From positions 1 to 31,912 of the IMG/VR virus record IMGVR_UViG_3300025769_000490: DNA of 31,912 nt, one strand, 5' to 3'. Shown here one piece after another: positions 6,039-25,222 of this stretch. This DNA is from a virus. Positions within the stretch are counted from its first letter, which is position 1, and each line of letters starts with the position of its first letter. The notes below the pieces were generated by a model. The model had not been told where the DNA came from. It did no database searches and worked only from the letters and a program-made list of their open reading frames with translations. The position numbers and the translations under genes were made by a program.

Positions 6039-7841
6039 GTGGACACCTACCGCGTAAAAGGAGCCGACGGCAAAATATACAAGGTCCGTGCGCCGTCACC
6101 AGAAGCCGCCGCAAGCGCGGTGCGCACGATGCTTGCTGCCGACGCTGCAGCTGCACCGGCTGCGCCGCGCCGCACTGGTAACGACGTCGGCAACACGCTG
6201 CGGACGCTACTAGGGCAGGGCGCTGGCTTTGGTTTCGGCGATGAGGTTGAAGCCGGGGTTCGCTCGCTATTTAGCGACCGCAGCTATGGCGACATCCGTG
6301 GCGACATTAGCGACGAAATTGACGCGTTCCGGTCCCGCAATCCGGGCCTCGCATACGGCAGCGAAATTGTCGGTGCGCTAGGGCCGACGTTGGCGGCCGC
6401 GGTTGCTACGCCGTTCACGGGCGGCGGTGCTGGCGCTGGCGCTGCTGCAGGCGCGGGGCGCATCGCAATGGCCGGTAACAAGCTGCGCCAGTTGGCAACC
6501 CCGGCACTACGGCCTGTCGCGCAGCCTATTGCTAAAGCGTCCAAAGCCGTTGACGCGGTGCTGCCGACCGGCCCGATAAAGCGCGCTGCCACGGTTGGCG
6601 CTGTGCAGGGCGGCATTTCCGGCGCTGGCTACGCGGAAGGCGGGCTAGAGGATCGCGCAGGCGGCGCTGCGGTGGGGGCTGGGCTTGGCGCTGCAATTCC
6701 GGGCCTCGGCGCTGCGGTGCTGCCACGGCTCGCCCCAGGCGCTAAGGAAATCATTAACCGAGGCATCACGCTCACACCGGGCCAAGCAACCGGCGCAAAC
6801 AGCCTTACCAACCGCATTGAACAGTTGGCGACTAGCACGCTGACCGGCCCTGGGATCGCTGCCGCACGTCGCCGCGCAGACGCTCAGTATTTCCCGATTG
6901 CCGCGCGCGAAGCGTTGGAAGCCGCAGGACAGACACTCGACACACCGGCAACGGGCAAGCTGTCCGCAAATGAAGTCATGGATCAACTGGTTGCAGGGTC
7001 GCGGCAGGCTTACGACGAAGCCGCTGCGGGCCTTAACGTCAAAGACCTTGGCGGACAGCTTATCTACGGGTCGGCGAAAGATATTATTGAGTCGCTGGAC
7101 GGCAAGGTTGTTAAGAAAATTCGCAAGGCGGTGAGTGACGCTGCGGAGGAGCTTTCAGACGGCAAGGGCGCTAAGGTCCGCGCAGCGTTTGACGCAATCA
7201 GCACCGGCAAGCCAGTCCCCGTGTTCGACCTTAGCGGTCAAGACCTACTGAAGATCAAAAACAAGCTGCGCAAGAAAGCGCGCAACGCTCTCGGGGTGAA
7301 GGAAAACCAGCTCTACAACGCCCTAGAAATGCTGCAGCGGAACATCATTGATAACGCAGGCCGCGTTTCTGGCGCTGGCGCAGCCGCTGTCCGAAATGCC
7401 GACACGTTATTCCGCGAGACCAAAGGCGTGTTCGCCCCAGCGTTTCAGCGCACCGGCTACGACGAAGCGCCTCGCATCACGGGCATCGCGGCCGCACGGC
7501 AGAAAAACCTGCAGAAGTTTGGCTCGAACGACGCCATTGAGGCCCGGTTGCCGGACGACGCCCAGCTGGCGACCATGACGGCGAACACCACGCCAAACAG
7601 CGGCACGATAGATCGCGGCACACTTATGATGCTGCTGAACAATATTGGCCGTGTTGGTGGTGCAGGGGCTTCATTTGCGATCAGCCCGTCGCTGCTTTTG
7701 GCACAGCTCGCCGGTGTGCCGTACATGACCCCGCAAACGACCGCCGCGCTACGGCAGGGCCTGCTCGCACCTGGCCGCATCACGCAGGCGCTTGGCGGGC
7801 GCTTTGGCGGCATGATTGGAGGCGCAAATGCCCAGGAATGA
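6039..7841 (+). CDS. Large internal virion / DNA-ejection protein
   Basis: A 600-residue protein with GTG start two bases after the previous stop. The N-terminus (YRVKGADGKIYKVRAPSPE) is a short domain often found at the start of phage virion proteins. Residues about 45-125 (NTLRTLLGQGAGFGFGDEVE, then GDIRGDISDEIDAFRSRNPG) match a segment shared by many marine and environmental podovirus internal proteins. A Gly/Ala-rich, membrane-compatible stretch follows (about 115-240), then a helical half with KNKLRKKARNALGVKENQLY. The composition fits a protein ejected into the envelope. The last 14 bases overlap the next gene. Assignment rests on architecture and context, not on a catalytic motif. Confidence 0.65.
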   Translation: MDTYRVKGADGKIYKVRAPSPEAAASAVRTMLAADAAAAPAAPRRTGNDVGNTLRTLLGQGAGFGFGDEVEAGVRSLFSDRSYGDIRGDISDEIDAFRSRNPGLAYGSEIVGALGPTLAAAVATPFTGGGAGAGAAAGAGRIAMAGNKLRQLATPALRPVAQPIAKASKAVDAVLPTGPIKRAATVGAVQGGISGAGYAEGGLEDRAGGAAVGAGLGAAIPGLGAAVLPRLAPGAKEIINRGITLTPGQATGANSLTNRIEQLATSTLTGPGIAAARRRADAQYFPIAAREALEAAGQTLDTPATGKLSANEVMDQLVAGSRQAYDEAAAGLNVKDLGGQLIYGSAKDIIESLDGKVVKKIRKAVSDAAEELSDGKGAKVRAAFDAISTGKPVPVFDLSGQDLLKIKNKLRKKARNALGVKENQLYNALEMLQRNIIDNAGRVSGAGAAAVRNADTLFRETKGVFAPAFQRTGYDEAPRITGIAAARQKNLQKFGSNDAIEARLPDDAQLATMTANTTPNSGTIDRGTLMMLLNNIGRVGGAGASFAISPSLLLAQLAGVPYMTPQTTAALRQGLLAPGRITQALGGRFGGMIGGANAQE

Positions 7842-8391
7842 TCTAACACAGCTGTCCGCAACCGACGCGGAAAATACCGACGTCAAGGGCGTTAGCATCG
7901 CGGAAGGCATGGCCCCTAGCGGCGTGAACAACGCGATCCGGGCCGTGGCGGCAATGCTGGCCGACGCGTTCGCAGCAGCGGCCCCCGGAACCAAGCTGAC
8001 GGCCGTGAAAGCCGCGAACGTCATTGTAGCTGACACCACGGACCGGCTGACCATCGGTACGACTAGCCCGACGCTGGTAAGCCACGACAACAGCACGACC
8101 ACCACGACCATCGACGCGGAACGGAACCTGACGCTGGAAGTCGGCACGACCGGCACGCAAGCGGCGTTCAGGGTGGACGGCCACGACAGCACCGCAAAGC
8201 GCACGCTGATCGACGTGGCAGCAAACGGCGCGATCACGCTGGGCAACACCAGTTACAGCCCCGCACCGACAGCAGCCGTGACGGTAAACGGCACGCTGAA
8301 TGCGACGACCTACACTGGCGACGGCAGCAACCTGACCGGCGTGACAACACTTGGTAAAGCGGCCGCTATGGCCCTGATTTTCGGAGGCTGA
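7828..8391 (+). CDS. Tail fibre/appendage protein, cassette A gene 1
   Basis: A 187-residue fibre protein. The start is ATG 7828 with GGAGG five bases upstream, inside the end of the previous gene. Residues 1-55 match the N-terminal domain common in phage tail fibres (DAENTDVKGVSIAEGMAPSG followed by NNAIRAVAAML), thought to attach the fibre to the particle. The middle is Thr/Asn-rich beta material and the end has the classic fibre motif TYTGDGSNLTGV. It finishes in AAAMALIFGG, almost the same tail as the cassette B fibre (AAAMALVLG). It is short for a receptor-binding fibre, so it may be a stub onto which the next two proteins assemble. Confidence 0.75.
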   Translation: MPRNDLTQLSATDAENTDVKGVSIAEGMAPSGVNNAIRAVAAMLADAFAAAAPGTKLTAVKAANVIVADTTDRLTIGTTSPTLVSHDNSTTTTTIDAERNLTLEVGTTGTQAAFRVDGHDSTAKRTLIDVAANGAITLGNTSYSPAPTAAVTVNGTLNATTYTGDGSNLTGVTTLGKAAAMALIFGG

Positions 8392-8394
8392 ACA

Positions 8395-8760
8395 ATGGCA
8401 GCACCTAACATCGTCGGGGTCGCCACGATCACCGGCAAAACCGCAGTGGCGGCAAACATCGCAACCAGCCCATCGGCGGCTACGCTGACCAACGCAGCAG
8501 CGTCGGACGACGTGTACAAGGTCAACGCGATCCTGATCAGCAACATCGCAAGCCCGGCGGCTGACACGACCGTGTCGGTGTTCTTGCGGCGCGGCGGTGC
8601 GGACTACTACATCGTGAACGGTATTGACGTGCCGCAGAAATCCACCTTGGACGTGCTGAACAAGCCGCTGTACCTCGAAGAAGGTGACGCGCTGTGGCTT
8701 CAAGCAGGCGCTGCAAACGCGCTGGACGCGGTGATTAGCTACGAGGTCATCACGGACTGA
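8395..8760 (+). CDS. Small tail appendage adaptor, cassette A gene 2
   Basis: A 121-residue predicted beta protein starting MAAPNI, with GGAGG ahead of ATG 8395. It is clearly homologous to the 124-residue product at 11441-11815: both start MAAPNI and share KVN-x-I, a LDVL segment, YLEE and a closing ISYE/VSYE. Its fixed place between a fibre and an adhesin in both cassettes suggests an adaptor or chaperone-like structural subunit of the appendage. No enzymatic motif is seen. The stop shares one base with the next start. Confidence 0.7.
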   Translation: MAAPNIVGVATITGKTAVAANIATSPSAATLTNAAASDDVYKVNAILISNIASPAADTTVSVFLRRGGADYYIVNGIDVPQKSTLDVLNKPLYLEEGDALWLQAGAANALDAVISYEVITD

Positions 8761-9830
8761 TGGCGCAGGGCTGGCACTACGGCGGGTTAATTGGGCAAGA
8801 CCCACGCGGCGGCACTGGCGGCCTGCGGACGTCTGGCGTGCGTGCCGTGGCCGATGCTGGGCAGACGACCGGTGGATTGCCTGACAGCACCCTGATCAGC
8901 GACGAGACTATCGCAGTAAACACCGCCGATACAGTGCTTACGTTTGACCATGGATACTCTTTTGGCGGGGCTGCTGGCGGCACGTCTAATGATGGTTCGA
9001 CGGTGCTTGTTGGCGCAAACCAAGGTTTCAGCTGGTACGAACTGTCTACGCCTTACGACTTTTCGACGCGCGGCACCCGTAACAACAAAAACTTTTTTGG
9101 CGATTCTGGAAACGACAGCGCGTACAACCAAGACTATCGCTCTCCGTATTTTGCACCAAACGGCATGTCCATCATTTGTGCAGGATCGAAACTCCCGTAT
9201 CAGACGATACAGATTCCACTCACGCAAGCGTACAACCCCGCTACTGCATCGCTGACCCACACAAGCGTGACTGGTTCCTCGCAATATCAGCGTATGTCGC
9301 CAGACGGCACAAAGATATTTGGAGGGTCCGACACTAGCGCCCCAATTAAGACTATGTCCACGCCAGGCGACATCACAACGATCAGCACGACTACGCTGTC
9401 ATCGGACGCAGACGCGGGCGTAAGCGGATACGCGCTCGTTCCAAGCTCAACTGTCCCGATATGCGATATCACCGGAAAGCGTTGGTTCGGTATGTTTGAG
9501 CGGTCGTCAGACTCAACCTTTCATTTCATCGCCGGAACGTCGGCTGCCGCGCACGCAATTGAAGCGATTACGTGGGACACGACAAAGACCTACAATATCG
9601 GCACTCAGAGAAACAGCTGGGACTTCGCAATCAATGCGGACCACACCCGCGTGCTGTTTGCCTACCGCGACTCTAACAGCAACCAAGTAACACGCTCCCT
9701 TGCGCTCGCCGACCTCGGCAAACCCACACAGCGCTGGGGCCGCCAGCTTGGCCGTAGCCCGTTCGTCGGCACGGCGCTCCGCAACACCGGCATCATCACC
9801 ACGCCAGAAGCGTATCAACTGAAGCTCTAA
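8760..9830 (+). CDS. Receptor-binding protein candidate, propeller-like, cassette A gene 3
   Basis: A 356-residue protein overlapping the previous stop by one base. It opens with HYGGLIGQDPRGG...TSGV, matching the start of the cassette B adhesin (HYFGGIIG...TSGV). The central region (about residues 60-310) contains repeated blade-like segments such as YELSTPYDFST, YFAPNGMSIICAG and MSPDGTKIFGG. This pattern is common in beta-propeller-like tail proteins of environmental phages. The C-terminus (NTGIITTPEAYQ) resembles the end of the cassette B adhesin (TTGVLSLAEDYQ). A distal receptor-binding role is inferred from fold pattern and gene order; the receptor is unknown. Confidence 0.65.
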   Translation: MAQGWHYGGLIGQDPRGGTGGLRTSGVRAVADAGQTTGGLPDSTLISDETIAVNTADTVLTFDHGYSFGGAAGGTSNDGSTVLVGANQGFSWYELSTPYDFSTRGTRNNKNFFGDSGNDSAYNQDYRSPYFAPNGMSIICAGSKLPYQTIQIPLTQAYNPATASLTHTSVTGSSQYQRMSPDGTKIFGGSDTSAPIKTMSTPGDITTISTTTLSSDADAGVSGYALVPSSTVPICDITGKRWFGMFERSSDSTFHFIAGTSAAAHAIEAITWDTTKTYNIGTQRNSWDFAINADHTRVLFAYRDSNSNQVTRSLALADLGKPTQRWGRQLGRSPFVGTALRNTGIITTPEAYQLKL

Positions 9831-9841
9831 GGACCACCGCA

Positions 9842-11428
9842 ATGGCAAACATCTATGACTTGACCGACACCTGGTCCGACGGAAACACGACCTACACGTC
9901 GATCAAAATGAACGTGACGAACACCGCGTCGGCGGCGGCGTCGAAGCTCATCGACCTGCAGATTGGCAGCAGCAGCCTGTTCAGCGTGGACAAAGACGGC
10001 AAGATCGCCGACGCCACGGAACTGCAGGTCGATAACGTCAAGCTGGACGGCAACACGGTAAGCAGCACGACCGGCAATCTGGTGCTCGACCCGTACAGCG
10101 GCAGCAAGATCAGCCTCGACGGCCTGCTGTGGCCCAACTCGGACGGCACCGCAAACCAGATGCTACAGACCGATGGCGCGGGCAACCTGTCGTGGGGGAC
10201 GCCTGCAGCCGGGTACAGCAACAGCGACGTCGACGCCCACCTGAACACCAGCGGCGCGACCACGAACCAAGTGCTATCCTGGACCGGTAGCGACTACGCA
10301 TGGACCGCACAGACCGTAGCGTTTGGCACGGCCGACGTAGACGCACACCTGAACACCGGCAGCGCGACCAGCGGCCAAACGCTGCAATGGAACGGTACGG
10401 ACTACGCATGGGGTACACCTGCCAGCAGCTACGGCGACAGCGACGTCGATACGCACCTGAACCGCAGCACCGCAACGACCGGCCAGCTGCTCAGCTGGAA
10501 CGGCAGCGACTACGACTGGATCACCAGCACCGCAGGCGGCGGCAGCTACGCGGATTCCGACGTTGACGCCCACCTAAACCGCAGCAGCGCGACCAGCGGG
10601 CAGGTGCTCAGCTGGAACGGCACCGACTACGACTGGGTCGCGCAGTCCGGCGGCGGCGGCTACACCGACGCGGACGTAGATACCCACCTGAACCGCAGCA
10701 ACGCCAGCAGCGGGCAGGTGCTCAGCTGGAACGGCAACGACTACGCATGGATTGCCGACGCAGGCATCACGGACGTTGTGTCGGACACGACCCCCCAGCT
10801 CGGCGGCCACCTCGACCTGAACACGCGGGACATCACCGGCACCGGTAACATCAACATCACCGGCAACGCGACGCTTACTGGCTACCTTGCTGGGCCTGCT
10901 ACGTTCACCATCGACCCGGCGCAGGTCGGCAACAACACTGGTACGGTCGTGATTGCGGGCGACCTGCAAGTAGACGGCACAACCACCACGATTAACAGCA
11001 CGACACTGACCGTGGACGACAAGAACATCGTGGTTGCATCCGGCGCTGCAAACGCCGCAGCTGCAGACGGCGCGGGCCTGACCGTAGACGGTGCCAGCGC
11101 GACGTTCACCTACGCCGTAACGGGCGACAAGTGGACCGCAAACAAGCCTCTGGACCTTGGCGCGAACGACCTGCTGGCCGACCATATCAAGGCAACCGGC
11201 GACGGCACGAACAACGGCAAGTTGGACCTGCAGTGCAGCGCTGGCAGCCACGCTGTAACGCTGGAAGGCCCGGACCATAGCGGCGCAAGCAGCTACACGC
11301 TGCAACTACCGCAGGCCGCACCGGCCGCTGGGCAGCTACTCGCGCAAAACAGCGCAAACAACCAACTCGAATTTGTTGATAACCCCGCCGCCGGTATTGC
11401 CGCCGCGATGGCGCTAGTCCTCGGATAA
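9842..11428 (+). CDS. Tail fibre protein with internal repeats, cassette B gene 1
   Basis: A 528-residue fibre protein with AAGGA upstream of ATG 9842. Residues about 120-315 hold five copies of a 36-39 residue repeat, each with DVDAHLN or DVDTHLN followed by Q-x-LSWNG-x-DYAW; copies begin near residues 129, 165, 201, 240 and 278. Next come motifs frequent in marine phage fibres: VVSDTTPQLGGHLDLN, then LQVDGTTTTINSTTLTVDDK and a DGAGLTVDG segment. The C-terminus ends AAAMALVLG like the shorter cassette A fibre. The repeats probably form an extended trimeric shaft. Attachment at the N-terminus and a distal partner at the C-terminus are inference. Confidence 0.8.
   Translation: MANIYDLTDTWSDGNTTYTSIKMNVTNTASAAASKLIDLQIGSSSLFSVDKDGKIADATELQVDNVKLDGNTVSSTTGNLVLDPYSGSKISLDGLLWPNSDGTANQMLQTDGAGNLSWGTPAAGYSNSDVDAHLNTSGATTNQVLSWTGSDYAWTAQTVAFGTADVDAHLNTGSATSGQTLQWNGTDYAWGTPASSYGDSDVDTHLNRSTATTGQLLSWNGSDYDWITSTAGGGSYADSDVDAHLNRSSATSGQVLSWNGTDYDWVAQSGGGGYTDADVDTHLNRSNASSGQVLSWNGNDYAWIADAGITDVVSDTTPQLGGHLDLNTRDITGTGNINITGNATLTGYLAGPATFTIDPAQVGNNTGTVVIAGDLQVDGTTTTINSTTLTVDDKNIVVASGAANAAAADGAGLTVDGASATFTYAVTGDKWTANKPLDLGANDLLADHIKATGDGTNNGKLDLQCSAGSHAVTLEGPDHSGASSYTLQLPQAAPAAGQLLAQNSANNQLEFVDNPAAGIAAAMALVLG
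10226..10760 (+). repeat. Five tandem shaft repeats inside the fibre gene
   Basis: Five in-frame imperfect repeats of about 108-117 bases begin at 10226, 10334, 10442, 10559 and 10673, each encoding D-V-D-(A/T)-H-L-N and then S-W-N-G-x-D-Y. The first two intervals are exactly 108 bases, the later ones 117 and 114. They are coding repeats, not a CRISPR array. They are a likely site of copy-number change by recombination. Confidence 0.85.
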
Positions 11429-11440
11429 GGAGACACTGAA

Positions 11441-11815
11441 ATGGCAGCACCAAACATCCGCGCGACCAGCGGCACGATCAACGGCAAAGTCGCCGGTTTG
11501 ACCGTGACGAACACCGCGCAAGACCTCGTAGCAAACGCGGCTGGCAGCAGCAAACTTCTGAAGGTCAACACGATCATTATCGCGAACGTAGACACCGCAG
11601 CAGCAGACGAAGTGCTGGTCACGCTGATCAAGGGCGTGGCTTCTGGCAGCGCCTCGACGTTCCACCTTGCGAAGAACATTAGCATTCCGGCCAAGGCGTC
11701 GCTCGACGTGCTGGCTGGGTCTGTGTACCTCGAAGAAGACGACAAGATTCAAGTGCAAGGCGTGGCAGCCAGCGGCGACCTCGAAGCCATCGTTTCGTAT
11801 GAGGACATCAGCTAA
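11441..11815 (+). CDS. Small tail appendage adaptor, cassette B gene 2
   Basis: A 124-residue protein starting MAAPNI, with AAGGAG nine bases before ATG 11441. It is the paralogue of 8395-8760: same start, same KVN-x-I block, SLDVL, VYLEE and VSYE near the end, and nearly the same length. It sits between fibre and adhesin exactly as in cassette A. A structural adaptor role is inferred. The next gene starts GTG two bases after its stop, so the two are probably translated together. Confidence 0.7.
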   Translation: MAAPNIRATSGTINGKVAGLTVTNTAQDLVANAAGSSKLLKVNTIIIANVDTAAADEVLVTLIKGVASGSASTFHLAKNISIPAKASLDVLAGSVYLEEDDKIQVQGVAASGDLEAIVSYEDIS

Positions 11816-11817
11816 CC

Positions 11818-12843
11818 GTGGGCAAGCACGCGAAACACTACTTCGGCGGCATCATCGGGGCCAGCCCGTTGGTCAGCAGCACACCACGCACTAGCGGCGT
11901 CTTCAGCCTCGGCGCACTCGGCGGTGACGGGGCGTCCACCACACGACCCACACGCCGCTGGGGCGGCATGACCGGGCGGTCGCTGGTGGAGAGCAGAGTG
12001 GACTGGACGCCTGCGGACATCGCCTCGGCAACGGTTGTCGGGTGGTTCGACGGCGAGAACGTCAACGGCGGCTCGGCTGGTAACAGCGGCGCGACAGCGT
12101 GGGTCAATAAGGCGGGTGGCGCAAACCTAAACTTCACTGGCTCGCCGACCGTAGGTACGACCAACGTGCGGACGGCCAGCGGTGCGTACCTCGGTGAAGC
12201 GGGGACACCTAGCTTCCTTCAGACCTCGGACTGGCGTGTGTTTATTGCGGCAACCATTAACGGCGGTAGCGGCACTGACCAATATGCCCCGCTGTTCAGC
12301 AGCGACACCGGCAACACGAACACGGGTGCATTCATATACTGGAAAACGACGGCCCAAGAATTTGCCAGCTACCCTCCCAGTTGGGGGTATATTGACCCCA
12401 TCGCGCCAACGTACCGATCGGGTTCTAGTTCTAACTTTCTAGGAAACCCCGCCGTCATAGACTTCAAGGCTTCCACGACTAACCCGTGGGAGATAGCGTT
12501 TGACGGCGGGCGCTCTGTAAGCGCTGTGTCTTCAACCTACACAAGCACAGTAGCTAGCAATCAAGCGGCCTATTTTGGGTACAGCTTCACAAATACCCGC
12601 CGCCTTGACGCGAACTACTTCCAGATCGTGATCGTTCACGGTACGCTTTCGAGCGATGACGAAGCGCGGCTGTACAGCTACCTCGCCCATAAGGCAGGCT
12701 CGCAAAGTTATTTGCAAACCAGCGCCTATTCCAGCGCACCGCCGACGAGGGTCGTGACTGGGCCAACCTCGCTTGCCACCACTCCCGCCCTCCCCACGAC
12801 CGGCGTGCTGTCACTCGCGGAAGACTATCAAGGAACCCTGTAG
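11818..12843 (+). CDS. Receptor-binding protein candidate, concanavalin-like, cassette B gene 3
   Basis: A 341-residue protein with GTG start. The N-terminal 60 residues (HYFGGIIG, TSGV, RPTRRWGGMTGRS) match the ends of the cassette A adhesin and probably dock it to the appendage. Residues about 65-295 look like a LamG/concanavalin A-like jelly roll: VVGWFDGENV, AWVNKAGG, WRVFIAATI, then WEIAFDGG and the closing helix LSSDDEARLYSYLAHKAG, which is typical of these lectin-like domains. The C-terminus TTGVLSLAEDYQ is shared with the cassette A adhesin. Carbohydrate or outer-membrane receptor binding is likely but not shown. Confidence 0.7.
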   Translation: MGKHAKHYFGGIIGASPLVSSTPRTSGVFSLGALGGDGASTTRPTRRWGGMTGRSLVESRVDWTPADIASATVVGWFDGENVNGGSAGNSGATAWVNKAGGANLNFTGSPTVGTTNVRTASGAYLGEAGTPSFLQTSDWRVFIAATINGGSGTDQYAPLFSSDTGNTNTGAFIYWKTTAQEFASYPPSWGYIDPIAPTYRSGSSSNFLGNPAVIDFKASTTNPWEIAFDGGRSVSAVSSTYTSTVASNQAAYFGYSFTNTRRLDANYFQIVIVHGTLSSDDEARLYSYLAHKAGSQSYLQTSAYSSAPPTRVVTGPTSLATTPALPTTGVLSLAEDYQGTL

Positions 12844-14392: not shown

Positions 14393-15679
14393 CTAAACCG
14401 CGTCTACCACGCTGCGCCCCATGTCGGGCCGGTAGGCGGCATACACCGTTTCGATGATTTGCGTGGACTGACCCGTGACCTGCCCAATCAGATATGGCGA
14501 CAGCCCCGCTGCAACGGCCCAAGTGATGTAGGACCGGCGGAACGCGTGGCTGTGTAGTCGCTCTGCCATGTCCTGCACCCGTGGGTCTGGGTCGTCCTGC
14601 ATCTTGGCCCGCAGCCGACGCAGCTTGCTGCCGATATGCTCCCGCTGCCACAGCACGTTAGCGTCGGTTGGTTCGCGTTCTGCTGCAGCGCGTTCGAGTA
14701 TCGGCCGCAAATCCGGCGCGATAGGGACGCTGGGGCGGCGTTTTGACGTCTCGCGTATGCCGCTGGGCTGCAGATGTATCACGTCATGAGACATGTCCAC
14801 ACGGTCCCACGTTAGGTCCATGAGAGCGCCGACGCGCGCGCCGGTGTAGCGGACCAGCCAAAGGTACAGCTCTAACGACGACAGGCGATTGCGGTCGCCG
14901 TAGTAGCCGCCACTGGTGCGCCATGCTTCGGCGTAGTCCAGCACCGTCGCCCAGTCGTCTTTGGTCAGGACCAGCTTGTCGTGAACTACCGGCTTGGCGA
15001 CGTCGATCAGAGGCGGCGCGTCGGTTTGCTTGATGCGCTTGGTTTTGACCGCGTGGCGGACAGCGGCGTTCCAGACAACGGCGTCGAGGCGAAAGCTGTT
15101 ATGGCTGATCGACCGCAAGCGCTGCTCCCGATACGCCGTCAAGTCTGCGTCTGTTACGTGGCGCACCGGCTTGTCGTCGGTAAGCGCGTCCCGCAGTTTG
15201 CCAATGATGCTGCGATAGCTGGCACGGGTCGCGTAGGATGCGGTTCCCAGCTTCTGGTCGAAATATTCCGATAACAGCTGCTGCACAGTAAACTGCGCCA
15301 CGGCCGTGCCAAGGCCAAGCTCTGCAAGGCGCTGCTCCATTCGGCGCGGTACTTCGTCCGGGTCGCGGGTGCCAAGGGACCGCCGCAGCAGTTTCGGCGG
15401 GTCGCCGACATAGACGTGGAGCATATAGAGGTCGCGGTTGGGGCAGAGCTTAACGTGCGGCCGCTGTTGGTCCCGTATCGCGACGAGTTTGCGCTTGCGT
15501 TCCTCGGCGGCCCGACGTGTCGCGTGCTTGCCTACGCTGTCGTAGTACAGTACCAGCGCGCCGTTGGTGTCGCGGTCGTACCAGACCACCCGCAGGTCGT
15601 CGGTAGTGCCGGGCAAATGTTTTAGGTCGAAAGCCTCGGCCGTAGCGCTGGGCCGGTCGGCTGTCTCATAGCTTAACAT
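14393..15679 (-). CDS. int: Tyrosine-family phage integrase
   Basis: The enzyme catalyses site-specific integration and excision of the phage genome through a 3'-phosphotyrosine intermediate. From ATG 15679 it has 428 residues. An SAM-like core-binding domain spans about 125-215, and the catalytic domain about 235-425. Visible catalytic residues are Arg282 (TGARVGAL), a Lys near 313 (ETSKRRPSVP), His378/Arg381 (HSHAFRRSY) and the nucleophile Tyr413 (IIETVYAAY). The His of the usual LGH box is replaced (VTGQS). GAGG lies nine bases before ATG 15679; a frame from 15739 would overlap the repressor gene more. The gene overlaps the repressor stop by 14 bases, so both share one leftward transcript. 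Confidence 0.92.
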   Translation of the reverse strand: MLSYETADRPSATAEAFDLKHLPGTTDDLRVVWYDRDTNGALVLYYDSVGKHATRRAAEERKRKLVAIRDQQRPHVKLCPNRDLYMLHVYVGDPPKLLRRSLGTRDPDEVPRRMEQRLAELGLGTAVAQFTVQQLLSEYFDQKLGTASYATRASYRSIIGKLRDALTDDKPVRHVTDADLTAYREQRLRSISHNSFRLDAVVWNAAVRHAVKTKRIKQTDAPPLIDVAKPVVHDKLVLTKDDWATVLDYAEAWRTSGGYYGDRNRLSSLELYLWLVRYTGARVGALMDLTWDRVDMSHDVIHLQPSGIRETSKRRPSVPIAPDLRPILERAAAEREPTDANVLWQREHIGSKLRRLRAKMQDDPDPRVQDMAERLHSHAFRRSYITWAVAAGLSPYLIGQVTGQSTQIIETVYAAYRPDMGRSVVDAV

Positions 15680-16076
15680 CTTGGAAGTCCTCTTTCTTCT
15701 TGCGCTCGCTGAAGCGGTTGTTTGCTTCGAGAACCTCATGCAGCATTTGGTCGTCCACCGGCATGCCGCCGATGCGCAGGATGAACCACCCTGGCTGACC
15801 GTCTACGGGCTGGAAATTGATGCTGCTGGTCGCGACAGAAACCACCGTATCGTCGAAGGATTCGGGGCAGAGTTCGCGCGGGTCCATTTGCAGGAAGTCC
15901 GCAAGCGTTTGCAGCCTACGGCCGCGTGGTAGGTGCAGGCCGCGCGCCCAGCCAGATATGGCCTGTTGCGACAGTCCGGTGCTGCGTTGGATTTGTAGTT
16001 GCGTTAGATCGCGGTCACGCATGATGCGCTTGAGGCGAGCCGCAAAAGCAGCCGCACGTTGCTGATCGTATGCCAT
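15666..16076 (-). CDS. XRE-family HTH repressor (CI-like)
   Basis: A 136-residue protein from ATG 16076, with GGGAG ten bases upstream (an upstream TTG at 16091 is only part of the ribosome site). Residues about 10-65 form an XRE/lambda-repressor-type helix-turn-helix: DLTQLQIQRSTGLSQQAISG with a GRRLQTLADFLQMD cap. The C-terminal half is short and beta-rich, with no Ser/Lys autoprotease signature, so a LexA-style self-cleavage switch is not supported. Its place beside the integrase, with operator-like repeats just upstream, supports the lysogeny repressor role. Confidence 0.82.
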   Translation of the reverse strand: MAYDQQRAAAFAARLKRIMRDRDLTQLQIQRSTGLSQQAISGWARGLHLPRGRRLQTLADFLQMDPRELCPESFDDTVVSVATSSINFQPVDGQPGWFILRIGGMPVDDQMLHEVLEANNRFSERKKKEDFQDVKL

Positions 16077-21853: not shown

Positions 21854-22067
21854 TAAATGAGACGTTTGTCTCGAAAGTGGGACACGTTGGGACACGTTGG
21901 GACGGGTGTTGGGACGGCTGATTTTGGGGCCAAGTGCCTGTTATAGTTTCTTTTTTTTAAGTGGGACGGGTGGGACGGGTAATATAGTAGTAATGTGAGA
22001 AGGGACGGGCCTAACCGTCGCAAACCGATTTTTGACCCGTCCCAAGCGTCCCAAGTGTCCCAGCTGG
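21854..22067. other. GGGAC repeat block, candidate replication origin
   Basis: A 214-base non-coding gap between convergent genes. It holds about seven rightward GGGAC(A/G) copies (from 21879, 21889, 21899, 21911, 21963, 21972 and 22002) and three inverted GTCCC copies (near 22039, 22048 and 22057). An AT-rich tract with a run of T (21941-21960) sits between the groups, and a perfect hairpin GAGAC-GTTT-GTCTC is at 21859-21872. The spacing gives G-quadruplex-type GGG runs on both strands. Location right after the primase-helicase and iterated repeats around an AT-rich segment fit a vegetative origin. Confidence 0.5.
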
Positions 22068-22724
22068 TTATTCGGACGCAAACCCGGCGACGCGGTTGTA
22101 ACGGGGCAGCCGTCCGCACTGATTGGCGAACTCGGCGAGGTGGTGCGCTTCCGCCGCAATTTCGCTTCGCTCGCAGCCGATAGCGGTCCATTCGACGCAA
22201 TCAAACGACCAGTCGCCACGTTCCGGCGCTTTTAGCCGCGCCGCGATTTTACCGCGACCGATGTAGACGGCCTCGCCTTGGTCAGTGTAGCGATAAATCC
22301 CGGTCGCGTGTCGCGGGATATTGCCCGTCGCGTCATGTCGCCCCGATAGGCACCCGAAGCCCGGCACAAGGTCCGCATAAAACGCCATGCTGGACATGCA
22401 CCGCGACACACTCGCCCGCGTTCTAGGCTCGGCGGACGCCAACGCGGGGAAGTGTTGGGCCAGCTGCCGCGCCGCGACGACCCGGCCAAGGCTGGGCTTA
22501 GACTGACTTGCGGGCCTGACCTTCAACGCGTCGTCTTCCGCCCCGTCAAGGAACCGAAAGTAAACGCGCAGCGGCTCCGTTTCGTCGGCAAAAAAAGCTG
22601 CGTGCGTTTTATCGGCCAGACCGTATTGCTGGATGAACGCCGCGCTAAAGTTCAGCGTGTCGGCTGTGATAGTCACCTCGGGGCGGCGGCTGTGCGAGCG
22701 TAGCCGCAATCTGCGCAGCGTCAT
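22068..22724 (-). CDS. GIY-YIG nuclease-domain protein
   Basis: A 218-residue leftward protein. The C-terminal third carries a GIY-YIG nuclease domain: GIY at 142-144, YIGRGKI at 154-160 with Arg157, Arg163, and Glu192 in AAEAHHLAEFA, followed by a basic segment ending YNRVAGF. The N-terminal part (RPEVTITADTLNFSAAFIQQ) resembles a small domain found in several phage proteins of unknown role. A middle section (70-135) joins the two. It may cut foreign or recombining DNA. The start overlaps the end of the next upstream gene by four bases. Confidence 0.68.
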   Translation of the reverse strand: MTLRRLRLRSHSRRPEVTITADTLNFSAAFIQQYGLADKTHAAFFADETEPLRVYFRFLDGAEDDALKVRPASQSKPSLGRVVAARQLAQHFPALASAEPRTRASVSRCMSSMAFYADLVPGFGCLSGRHDATGNIPRHATGIYRYTDQGEAVYIGRGKIAARLKAPERGDWSFDCVEWTAIGCERSEIAAEAHHLAEFANQCGRLPRYNRVAGFASE

Positions 22725-22942
22725 GGCGTCGTCTCCGTTGGCCGCCTCGGCGCAGCGTCGTAAATGGCGTTCCCGTCGCGGTCTTCGACCAGTACGCAGG
22801 ACAGCCGTTCTTCGCCGTCCCAGTCGTCCAGAAAGTCGTCTGCAGCGGCCGTTGCCGCGTCTGGGTCTTCGTAACAGCCTATCTCGTAGAAACGGCCTGT
22901 AGCGGCCGTAAAATCGGCCAGAGCGGTATAGGGGCCGGGCAT
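22721..22942 (-). CDS. Small acidic hypothetical protein
   Basis: A 73-residue Asp/Ala-rich protein, ATG 22942, with its stop overlapping the GIY-YIG start (ATGA). It has FYEIGCYEDPDAATAAADDF and DWDGEERLSCVLVEDRDGN, a pattern of helix then beta hairpin. No family is recognised. The acidic character is shared with the neighbouring leftward products, which could hint at DNA mimicry, but this is only a compositional remark. Confidence 0.55.
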   Translation of the reverse strand: MPGPYTALADFTAATGRFYEIGCYEDPDAATAAADDFLDDWDGEERLSCVLVEDRDGNAIYDAAPRRPTETTP

Positions 22943-22946
22943 TGGC

Positions 22947-23231
22947 TCAGTGCTCCGTGTCGCCGCTGGGGGACAGCACGTCTTCGCCGTACTTGTCCGC
23001 CCAGTGGTCCGCCATTGGCACGGCGATGCGCTTCAGCCGCCACCACGTAAACGCGGCAGCCTGCACGCTCTCCGGCGCGTTCTCTATGTCGTCGAGATAC
23101 GGCTCTATCGCGTCTTCCAGTTGGTCGATTTGGTGAGACACCGCGTCCATGAAGTGGTGAAACGCGATTGCGTCTGTTTGCATGGAAACGGTGTTGCCGG
23201 TCGCCCGGATTCTTACAGATACGTCAGTCAT
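22947..23231 (-). CDS. Hypothetical protein, acidic helical
   Basis: A 94-residue protein from ATG 23231, with GGAG seven bases upstream; a longer open frame upstream is rejected because it lacks a ribosome site and overlaps the tiny membrane gene. The N-terminus is beta-like (TDVSVRIRATGNTVSM), followed by helices (HHFMDAVSHQIDQLEDAIEP) and WWRLKRIAVPMADHWADKYG. No known domain. It is part of the leftward accessory block that ends with GIY-YIG. Confidence 0.55.
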   Translation of the reverse strand: MTDVSVRIRATGNTVSMQTDAIAFHHFMDAVSHQIDQLEDAIEPYLDDIENAPESVQAAAFTWWRLKRIAVPMADHWADKYGEDVLSPSGDTEH

Positions 23232-23278
23232 GGTGTGCTCCAAAAAAGTTTTGCGGTGTTTCAAGTTGCGTCGGTTGG

Positions 23279-23374
23279 TCAGTACGGGGTCAGCGCCCAG
23301 ACGTGCAGCGACCAAACGAGCACGCCCAGCAATGCGCCGGTGCAGGCGGCCATAACGGCCCGGTGGGTTGTCAT
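23279..23374 (-). CDS. 31-residue membrane peptide
   Basis: A tiny leftward gene, ATG at 23374 overlapping the stop of the upstream gene (ATGA) and ending TGA at 23279-23281. The product begins MTTHRAVMAACTGALLGVLV and is mostly one membrane helix (about residues 8-28), closing with WALTPY. The ATGA overlap and clear hydrophobic design support it as real. Its function is unknown; small phage membrane peptides can act in superinfection exclusion. Confidence 0.5.
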   Translation of the reverse strand: MTTHRAVMAACTGALLGVLVWSLHVWALTPY

Positions 23375-23922
23375 GCTGCGGCCTCCACTGCGAACACCTC
23401 GGCGTGCGCTTCGCGGATCGCCTTGTCGGACAGCGAATAGAAAGCAGCGGCGTCCACTGTGCTGTAGATAAACAGGTTTACCCCGTCGCTTGTGCCTTGC
23501 ACGTAATGGTCGCCGCCTGCGCGGTTCACGTCATCAATGATTGCCCGTTGTTCAGCGCGTGTTTTTTCAGTGAACCACTGCGGCAAGTCTGCAAGGTCGA
23601 CATGCGTTTCAATTTCGCCGATAGGGAACGCGCCCAGGTCATCTGCTTCGCCGCCGTGATATTGGCTATCGAAGCGCCAGGATATGCGCACCAGGCATGC
23701 TTCCCCGAAGCGGTCTTCGTCGAATGTAGGGACGGCCAGGCCAAGGCCGCGCGCCCGCTCTGCAACACTTTGGTCGCAGTTGTGGTAATCCCAGTCGCCT
23801 TCAAACGGCAGATGCGTGTAGGCGTCGAGCGCGTCTTCGTGCGTCGTCTTATATTCAACGTTAGCGTCGGCGGCGGCAGTAACAATTTCGACCAGTTGGT
23901 CAATGCGGTCTTCGTAAGTCAT
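23371..23922 (-). CDS. Hypothetical acidic protein
   Basis: A 183-residue protein from ATG 23922, chosen because GGGAG lies eight bases upstream; ATG 23937 is open but contains that ribosome site. It is rich in Asp/Glu and aromatic residues: TYEDRIDQLVEIVTAAADAN, then FEGDWDYHNCDQSV, VDLADLPQWFTEKTRAEQRA and GDHYVQGTSDGVNLFIYS. No domain is recognised. It follows ardA and shares with it a conserved intergenic leader, so the two are probably co-regulated. Confidence 0.6.
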   Translation of the reverse strand: MTYEDRIDQLVEIVTAAADANVEYKTTHEDALDAYTHLPFEGDWDYHNCDQSVAERARGLGLAVPTFDEDRFGEACLVRISWRFDSQYHGGEADDLGAFPIGEIETHVDLADLPQWFTEKTRAEQRAIIDDVNRAGGDHYVQGTSDGVNLFIYSTVDAAAFYSLSDKAIREAHAEVFAVEAAA

Positions 23923-23986
23923 GTCATAAGCTCCCATGGTGCGGCGGGCCGCCGTAAAGACGGCACACCGGGTTGTTGTTGGTTGG
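23923..23986 (-). promoter_or_regulatory. Leader element copy 1 (repeated intergenic motif)
   Basis: Between ardA and the next leftward gene lies CCGGGTTGTTGTT (23968-23980), a GCCGT/ACGGC hairpin (23951-23964), and CTCCCATG (23931-23938), which is the GGGAG ribosome site when read leftward. The same order of elements stands before ardA. The hairpin has no T-tract and may act on translation or RNA stability. Confidence 0.4.
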
Positions 23987-24496
23987 TTAATTCGTGAAAA
24001 TGAAACAGCCGCTTGGGCCTTCCACTACGACGCAATCGGGGCGCAGGTCGCGGGCGTGGGCGTCATAGTCGAAGTAGTAGCGCGCCGGTTCTGGGACGTC
24101 GGTTAACAGCAACTCGTCTGCCCATTCGTCCGCAAAGTCTTGGAACGTGTCGGCCCTGTAACAGCTGTCCGCGCGGTCAACCACGCTGTCCAGCCCTTCG
24201 CCGTAAAACTCGCCGTAAGCAGCGGCAAAAGCGTCTTGGTCGTCGCAGCGCTCGACCGCCTCGACAAACTCGCACAGCGTCTCTATCGACTCATATTCGC
24301 CGAACGGGACAGACATATTGAGCGCCGTATCATAATCGGTGAAAAAGTGCTCCTCGGCTCCGGGCGCTGGGCTATCGGCAAGCACGGCCGCAATGGCGTC
24401 GCGCAGGTCGTCCGGGTCGGACGTTACCTCGACCCAGCGGCCGTGGAGATAGCCGTTATTGTATGCGGCGAGGCATGTCACAAAAGTCTTAAGCAT
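23987..24496 (-). CDS. ardA: ArdA-like antirestriction protein
   Basis: A 169-residue protein, close to the usual ArdA length (about 165), with GGGAG nine bases before ATG 24496. ArdA mimics B-form DNA and blocks type I restriction enzymes. Family features visible are YNNGYLHGRWVEV at 12-24, an AEEHFFTDYD segment, EYESIETL at about 67-74, a long acidic helical middle, and the closing YYFDYDAHARDL with GCFIF. Net charge is strongly negative. It stands in the leftward block next to other acidic proteins, consistent with early protection of phage DNA on entry. Confidence 0.85.
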   Translation of the reverse strand: MLKTFVTCLAAYNNGYLHGRWVEVTSDPDDLRDAIAAVLADSPAPGAEEHFFTDYDTALNMSVPFGEYESIETLCEFVEAVERCDDQDAFAAAYGEFYGEGLDSVVDRADSCYRADTFQDFADEWADELLLTDVPEPARYYFDYDAHARDLRPDCVVVEGPSGCFIFTN

Positions 24497-24566
24497 TGGT
24501 AAATTCTCCCATGTTGGTCGGTGCGACGCGCCGAGTTACCAGCGCGCCGGGTTGTTGTTAGTAGGT
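24497..24566 (-). promoter_or_regulatory. Leader element copy 2 (repeated intergenic motif)
   Basis: Before ardA the gap repeats the pattern of the next downstream gap: CCGGGTTGTTGTT at 24547-24559 (identical 13 bases), a GC-rich section with two CGCGCCG copies, and CTCCCATG at 24506-24513 giving the GGGAG ribosome site. The distance between the two conserved ends is 33 bases here and 29 in copy 1. Confidence 0.4.
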
Positions 24567-24905
24567 CTAGGCAGCGCTTTGTTGCGCCCTAAATCCCTCG
24601 ACCATTGCAAATTGCGCTTTCCACGATAGGCTGGTCCCGCGCCATGAGCGCAAGTTTCGAATGGGGCTAGAGTTGCCGTCGTTGCGGTCAATAAAGTCCG
24701 GTTCTTTACGAAAACGCGCCCTGTAAGCCTCGACAAACAGCATTGCGTCGCCGTCCTCTTCAACCCAGACAGTGCTGCCACTAGGCTGCCGATCATAATA
24801 GCTGAAGTCGCTAATCGCGTGGTCAATATTCAGCTCTACAAGCAATGACTCAGGAACACCAATCCAGCCGTGGCCTGCGTCGCTTGCGTAAATAAATTTA
24901 GTCAT
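24567..24905 (-). CDS. Conserved phage hypothetical protein
   Basis: A 112-residue protein from ATG 24905 (GGAG nine bases upstream). It has ASDAGHGWIGVPESLLVEL, SDFSYYDRQ, VWVEEDGDAMLFVEAYRARF and SPIRNLRSW. This order (D-x-GHGW, a SYY-type strand, EED-x-D, A-x-LF-x-EAY, a final SPIR) is seen in a widespread but unnamed family of small phage and plasmid proteins. No function is established. It is the first gene of the leftward accessory block. Confidence 0.65.
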   Translation of the reverse strand: MTKFIYASDAGHGWIGVPESLLVELNIDHAISDFSYYDRQPSGSTVWVEEDGDAMLFVEAYRARFRKEPDFIDRNDGNSSPIRNLRSWRGTSLSWKAQFAMVEGFRAQQSAA

Positions 24906-24962
24906 GTCGGTAACTCCGTTTTGTTGTGTGCACTATCCTTATGACATTCTGACACAACCGAC

Positions 24963-24993
24963 AACAAGTTTTGTTACCAGTTTTATCAATTGA
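24963..24993. promoter_or_regulatory. Palindromes in the divergent control region
   Basis: AACAAGTTTTGTT (24963-24975) is a 5-bp inverted repeat around GTT, and TCAATTGA (24986-24993) is a perfect palindrome touching the rightward -35. They sit between the leftward accessory block and the rightward HTH-terminase genes, the expected place for operators of the small HTH protein. Confidence 0.35.
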
Positions 24994-25017
24994 TTTTGCG
25001 TGACGTTCTGGCATAAT
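24990..25017 (+). promoter_or_regulatory. Rightward promoter for the HTH-terminase genes
   Basis: TTGATT (24990-24995) and CATAAT (25012-25017) are 16 bases apart. A start about seven bases after the -10 would fall at or next to the ATG at 25025, giving an almost leaderless message. No Shine-Dalgarno can be seen between the -10 and the ATG. Confidence 0.5.
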
Positions 25018-25024
25018 CCCGGCC

Positions 25025-25222
25025 ATGACATCGAAAGAACTACGCGCGGCCCGTGCCGCCCTAGGCATGACCGGCGACCAGTTGGCCGCCACGCTTGGCG
25101 TCACCGGCCGGACCTATCGGCGCTGGGAATTGGACGAAACGCCGGTGCCTGCCATCGCTGCCCTGGCCGTGCGTCTGCTACTGCTAACAGACCCGGAGCG
25201 CTGGCCCGGCCATGACGGATGA
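25025..25222 (+). CDS. Small XRE/Cro-like HTH protein
   Basis: A 65-residue protein that is almost entirely one helix-turn-helix: TSKELRAARAALGMTGDQLA, then ATLGVTGRTYRRWELDE and an AALAVRLLLL helix. The pattern fits small XRE-type regulators with the YRRWE recognition end. The promoter palindromes just upstream suggest autoregulation and control of the divergent accessory block. The last 11 bases overlap the small terminase gene. Confidence 0.72.
   Translation: MTSKELRAARAALGMTGDQLAATLGVTGRTYRRWELDETPVPAIAALAVRLLLLTDPERWPGHDG

Follow-up and report, generated by a model that had tools for sequence, protein, structure and literature searches.

Exchangeable tips on conserved mounts are already known in principle. 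In T-even-like phages such as S16 and PP01, the gp38 adhesin of the gp37-gp38 pair sits on the trimeric fibre tip without a coupler. A different arrangement is found in the Tfa-kind tail fibre chaperone modules described for Pam3 (gp24-gp25) and Alteromonas A5/V22, and gp25 of Pam3 carries a helical trimerisation domain and was undetected in Pam3 virions (PMC9608196, PMC10579305). In the neck fibre of Anabaena phage A-1(L), segments encoded by separate genes are linked end to end into a chain (PMC10966104). At the genome level, the metaviromic islands and host recognition clusters of marine phages are outlined as variable regions, and no plug or coupler is named in the accessible portions of those reports (PMC3909814, PMC7029224). 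In uncultured aquatic phages, receptor-binding proteins are difficult to identify, since their centres change fast.

The locus considered here lies in the window, the whole stretch of 31,912 bases that was analysed, which is a linear and possibly incomplete IMG/VR virus record. The window also encodes a portal protein (phrog_1216), a large terminase, a scaffold protein, a RecE-like exonuclease, a primase-like gene, and an integrase, and many short-tailed phages are among the relatives of its portal (tblastn). An ORF check confirmed the coordinates and order of six plus-strand genes, which an earlier note on this DNA had read as fibre, adaptor, and adhesin twice over. Cassette A comprises fibre A (7828..8391, 187 aa, 42% identical to the fibre of the related locus L129), adaptor A (8395..8760, 121 aa), and adhesin A (8760..9830, 356 aa), and cassette B comprises fibre B (9842..11428, 528 aa, with tandem repeats of ∼38 aa and a distal half 60% identical in L132), adaptor B (11441..11815, 124 aa), and adhesin B (11818..12843, 341 aa). 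A promoter and terminator scan of this sequence gave nothing above shuffled sequence.

The best explanation of this layout, with a probability of roughly 0.68, is that the adaptor is a virion coupler joining the fibre tip to an exchangeable adhesin. The N-terminus of the fibre would anchor it to the virion and its C-terminus would form a short hydrophobic plug, on which a single-domain all-beta coupler of ∼120 aa would be seated; the distal adhesin would in turn dock on the coupler through N-terminal GGxxG and TSGVxSL motifs, and its C-terminus carries one more motif copy. Because docking would be confined to short conserved adhesin motifs, the receptor-binding centre could be exchanged with the joint left untouched. 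The plug would thus touch the coupler and the coupler the adhesin, the coupler would remain in the virion, the fibre is probably a trimer, and the adhesin centres presumably bind receptors. The coupler reading draws on the association of plug and adaptor, the conserved starts and varied receptor-type domains of the downstream proteins, natural exchanges of adhesin centres, the loss of plug B together with adaptor B and adhesin B in one relative, a confidently predicted beta domain, distant relatives named as virion structural proteins, a parallel layout in a distant branch, and candidate serial chains; about half of the upstream genes fall outside the strict plug pattern and several loci carry short non-adhesin genes downstream, and both were counted against it. 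Like the Pam3 and Alteromonas A5/V22 modules, the cassettes place a small protein that would act at the distal end directly after the fibre gene and are shared between unlike phages. They differ from those modules in two ways: the window adaptor consists of one all-beta domain and lacks a Tfa match, and an adhesin gene comes third in the set. The separate distal adhesin resembles the gp37-gp38 tip, but here a coupler would stand between fibre and adhesin.

The plug is the part of the fibres that is conserved. Fibres A and B share only their C-terminal ends, as had been claimed, with a best E value of 1.6 elsewhere and unlike N-termini; fibre A ends in GKAAAMALIFGG (8353..8388) and fibre B in AGIAAAMALVLG (11390..11425). 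The AAAMAL end seen in the window is the local variant of (S/T)TGKAIAMAIVFGG, a C-terminal plug that is found across aquatic phages. The strict pattern fits the end of fibre A and fibre B of L008, and fibre B of the window is one residue off. It stands at the C-terminus of 49 of the 98 genes directly upstream of adaptors vs. 6 of 1672 other ORFs, and the remaining half or so of the upstream genes include some plug variants and some intervening genes. For example, an HNH-type gene lies between plug fibre and adaptor in L013 and L067, and the variant GKxIAYKxIL ends the upstream genes in a set of loci. In a reverse test, independent of the adaptor search, viral contigs were scanned for DNA encoding GKAIAMA(I/M)VFG; among the matches listed, all 80 of 80 sites lay at the C-terminus of a gene, and all 71 sites with room for a further gene were followed by an adaptor (71/71), 70 of them within 60 nt, counts that may be partly redundant, as some contigs may be near-duplicates. 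The proposal that the AAAMAL end and the adaptor form a general plug-and-socket is thereby strongly supported as a genomic association. As a separate observation, L067 has a 100-aa fibre made up of anchor plus plug, and its N-terminus is similar to that of fibre A.

The two adaptors are paralogues over their full length, as the earlier note proposed, with 39% identity and an E value of 1e-21 (P0001/P0002), a significant similarity whose absence had been named there as grounds for giving up the idea. Both were recovered by the family model, each between a fibre and a distal protein. The family A4 alignment, to which adaptor B belongs, holds 48 sequences, with four A3 rows from phage records left out, and many positions are near-invariant among these 48 diverse phages. 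AlphaFold2 with the 48 sequences predicts an all-beta single domain for the adaptor with a pLDDT of 92.5 and a pTM of 0.83, in which the sole helix has three residues. In a Foldseek comparison with solved structures, this model matched Ena pilins, ExsF, C1q-like, and cement proteins weakly, at TM scores of about 0.4–0.55, and its comparison with TNF/C1q-like jelly rolls likewise stayed at about 0.4–0.55. The Ena, ExsF, and lambda-tip matches are too weak to assign the adaptor to a family, and in a sequence search of the PDB neither adaptor gave a credible match, nor did the family profile. The function-unknown family phrog_1276 is matched by adaptor B (E 1e-6), adaptor A (E 5e-4), and 12 of the 48 family members, with the adaptor match covering only about the first third of its 325-position profile.

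The fold and the conservation of the adaptor bear on two other readings of its role. The 120-aa protein is unlikely to be an assembly chaperone specific to the fibre, or a transient cap, that recognises the plug during fibre folding and leaves afterwards, with the adhesin binding the fibre directly or forming a separate appendage. The gene does directly follow the fibre gene as in the modules of Pam3 gp24-gp25 and Alteromonas A5/V22 (PMC9608196, PMC10579305), a recognition motif at the C-terminus would be in keeping with a chaperone, and Pam3 gp25 likewise has a beta-sandwich domain. However, neither adaptor has a Tfa match in Pfam at E values up to 1, the helical trimerisation domain of Pam3 gp25 is absent from the all-beta AlphaFold2 model, and a chaperone would leave unexplained why the downstream proteins have conserved starts; the chaperone is disfavoured on these grounds. 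The adaptor model also matches predicted viral proteins well, several of which, one from S-TIM5 among them, are named as virion structural proteins, and these annotations of distant relatives point to a place in the virion for the kin of the adaptor, which again argues against a protein that leaves. A receptor-binding lectin at the fibre tip, with the downstream protein as an independent appendage, is very improbable: the adaptor of DSL-LC04 is annotated as a ‘putative lectin’ and the beta-sandwich fold is weakly similar to C1q/TNF-like and carbohydrate-binding domains, but the adaptor, with its near-invariant positions in 48 diverse phages, is far more conserved than would be expected of a receptor-binding tip, and the variable protein is the downstream one.

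The conserved parts of the adhesins are their ends. The claim that adhesins A and B share these ends holds weakly in pairwise comparison (BLASTP E 0.008–0.019), but it is borne out by close relatives, which keep the ends while the centre changes, and by the downstream proteins of other phages, which start alike. The N-terminal docking motif of adhesin A (HYGGLIG...RTSGV, 8760..8840) and that of adhesin B (HYFGGIIG...RTSGVFSL, 11818..11934) correspond to a frequent start of proteins downstream of adaptors, GGxIG...SGxWSL. Within the first 25 aa, GG-x-IG was found in 46 of 92 such proteins vs. a shuffled mean of 9.2 and maximum of 18, and SG-x-W within the first 50 aa in 34 of 92 vs. a shuffled mean of 1.1 and maximum of 7. 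At several adaptor loci the downstream gene is a short, non-adhesin one. A related motif recurs at the C-terminus of both window adhesins, in adhesin A as QRWGRQLGRSPF...RNTGI..EAYQ (9717..9827) and in adhesin B as LPTTGVLSLAEDYQ (12790..12840), and adhesin B has in addition an inner GGxxG linker, RPTRRWGGMTGRS (11944..11995). In L127, L131, and L132, domains sit between such half-motifs, and it may be guessed that the two halves of an adhesin meet in space. Among 65 downstream proteins, Pfam assigned glycine-rich domains to 36, Laminin_G_3 to 12, fn3 to 6, and RCC1 and SPRY to single proteins; the glycine-rich tips of these 36 of 65 adhesins in the coupler family are a further likeness to the gp37-gp38 tip. 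Unlike gp38, the two window adhesins have no glycine-rich match in Pfam, and such a domain is present in adhesin B of L127. Adhesins A and B (P0003, P0004) have no Pfam or NCBIfam match and no credible PDB sequence match; the propeller-like centre in A and the concanavalin-like centre in B proposed in the earlier note were not confirmed: no beta-propeller match was found for the centre of adhesin A in Pfam or, credibly, by PDB sequence, no concanavalin A-like match was found for the centre of adhesin B in Pfam or by PDB sequence, and the AlphaFold2 model of adhesin B has a pLDDT of 34.

Natural exchanges in relatives strongly support, and generalise, the proposal of conserved docking ends with swappable centres, since the ends are kept and the centres replaced in both L127 and L129. 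The match of L127 to the window, at 84–90% DNA identity, reaches 11918, a position within the first part of adhesin B; beyond this point only the 52-nt linker, isolated between unlike stretches, and 41 nt of the C-terminal motif still match, each at 88% DNA identity. The L127 adhesin has 803 residues and retains the N-terminal docking motif at 79% identity over 39 aa. Similarly, L129 keeps the N-terminal and C-terminal ends of adhesin A (67% and 56% identity) around an unrelated centre, and the centre of adhesin B recurs behind other fibres in L131 (60%) and L132 (52%). The DNA of L128 matches the window up to 11369 and then again from 12833; plug B, together with adaptor B and adhesin B, gives way there to one C-terminal domain fused to the fibre, and no adaptor was found in this 6.7-kb record, itself a fragment. 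The cassettes resemble metaviromic islands and host recognition clusters in being variable host-recognition regions of aquatic phages. Among the full-text papers listed for the letters of the plug none was relevant, the available parts of the literature on the A-1(L), 7-7-1, and LSH1 fibres do not describe this coupler, and no description of this plug and coupler was found in the accessible literature searched. The occurrence of plug and coupler in many unrelated aquatic phages suggests a shared, apparently undescribed mount for exchangeable host-recognition tips. Conserved plugs and couplers would mark the adjoining receptor-binding proteins by position and ends, not by fold, and would make it testable how phages exchange host-recognition parts while the assembly joint is kept.

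The two cassettes would form two separate appendages, and two host-range devices on one virion are plausible because the N-termini of the fibres differ. Two cassettes are not peculiar to this phage, since multiple adaptors are common: a whole-record search gave at least one adaptor match in 36 of 37 records, and about half have more than one when distant ones are counted, with two strong core matches in seven. The earlier note regarded the pair as a tandem duplication, which the sequence does not show; a recent duplication is not supported, as both adaptors have their nearest relatives in other phages. Adaptor A is closer to that of L088 (64–66%) and to other phages’ adaptors (about 50–55%) than to adaptor B, and in a 55-adaptor tree the partner of A is L088 and that of B is L008, with A and B ungrouped. 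An origin of cassette B as a tandem duplicate of cassette A within the phage lineage, followed by replacement of the fibre and the adhesin centre, would fit the same gene order in both cassettes, the 39% identity of the adaptors, and a topology holding A, B, L088, and L008 together, which was not rejected (AU test p 0.377) and would correspond to an older sister relation of A and B. Against it stand the tree pairings and the adaptor identities, together with the unlike fibre N-termini and the occurrence of parts of cassette B in unrelated contigs. A duplication origin, neither supported nor rejected, is accordingly not favoured and appears doubtful.

Distant adaptor relatives were found by tblastn, with distant family members as queries, in phages of Puniceispirillum, Roseobacter, Pelagibacter, Rhizobium, Methylophilales, Delftia, and cyanobacteria, and plasmids searched with a distant adaptor gave no match. 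The distant-branch profile also has no match in S-CREM2, for which virion proteomics exists, so that these proteomics cannot show the presence of the adaptor in the virion. In the six isolates inspected from the distant branch, a gene lying one or two positions upstream has a C-terminus such as ALAIALG, IALSIALG, FAVAMAIAL, or LIWAIVMG, and in five of the six the next protein starts with MxYIGN or similar; in HTVC100P, an endonuclease VII gene intervenes at the locus. This branch, with its ALAIALG plug and MxYIGN partner start, suggests serial chains. A modular coupling code can be put forward tentatively, at somewhat less than an even chance, in which a matched plug, small beta coupler, and partner N-terminus would let aquatic phages chain fibres serially and exchange adhesins, with receptor-binding domains inserted between the halves of a repeated docking motif. 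One set would combine the GKAIAMAIVFG plug with MAAPNI-type couplers and GGxIG partners, another the ALAIALG plug with MANTFKN-type couplers and MxYIGN partners, and the code would span phages of different morphologies. Such serial joining recalls the neck fibre of A-1(L), from which the window cassettes differ in their proteins and place in the virion. L016 and S-SKS1 would each hold two couplers in series, and their layouts are as would be expected of serial chaining: between a distant and a core adaptor, L016 has an open frame of 132 residues that starts with MSYLGN and ends in a plug, and in S-SKS1, a 1728-aa protein lies between two adaptors.

Variation in the length of fibre B (9842-11428 on the plus strand, 528 aa) may arise from tandem units of ~38 aa (DSDVDAHLN...GQVLSWNGSDYDWV), which occupy positions 10224-10784 of the window. 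Counted with one pattern, the units number four in the window and in L128 and five in L127 (L128 and L127 being close relatives of the window), and judging from these sequences, unit number could therefore set differing fibre B lengths.

Among the loci with relatives of the cassette genes, genes of the HNH or endonuclease VII type lie between the adaptor gene and the fibre bearing the plug, its short conserved C-terminal end, in unrelated phages (L013, 5509-5994; L067, 5382-5996; L260, 3501-3905), and such interposed genes might aid the spread of plug-adaptor cassettes. Adaptors of ~228 aa are found in L045, L056, L065, L068, and L071, where an insert after approximately residue 75 splits the domain. 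A separate class of adaptor loci, including L066, L063, L084, and L049, has the fibre end GKxIAYKxIL..D..R and, downstream, a short protein of ~140-180 aa in the place of the adhesin.

The window virus encodes an integrase-family gene (14393-15739 on the minus strand) together with a portal of the short-tailed-phage type, and the integrase-family gene suggests a temperate phage. A search of the window found no tRNA genes; positions 21900-25200 are without clear genes, and two minus-strand ORFs tested from this region had no Pfam match. Seven adaptor relatives (L251-L257) occur in bacterial genome records, mostly MAGs, and may represent proviruses or phage contigs binned with bacteria.
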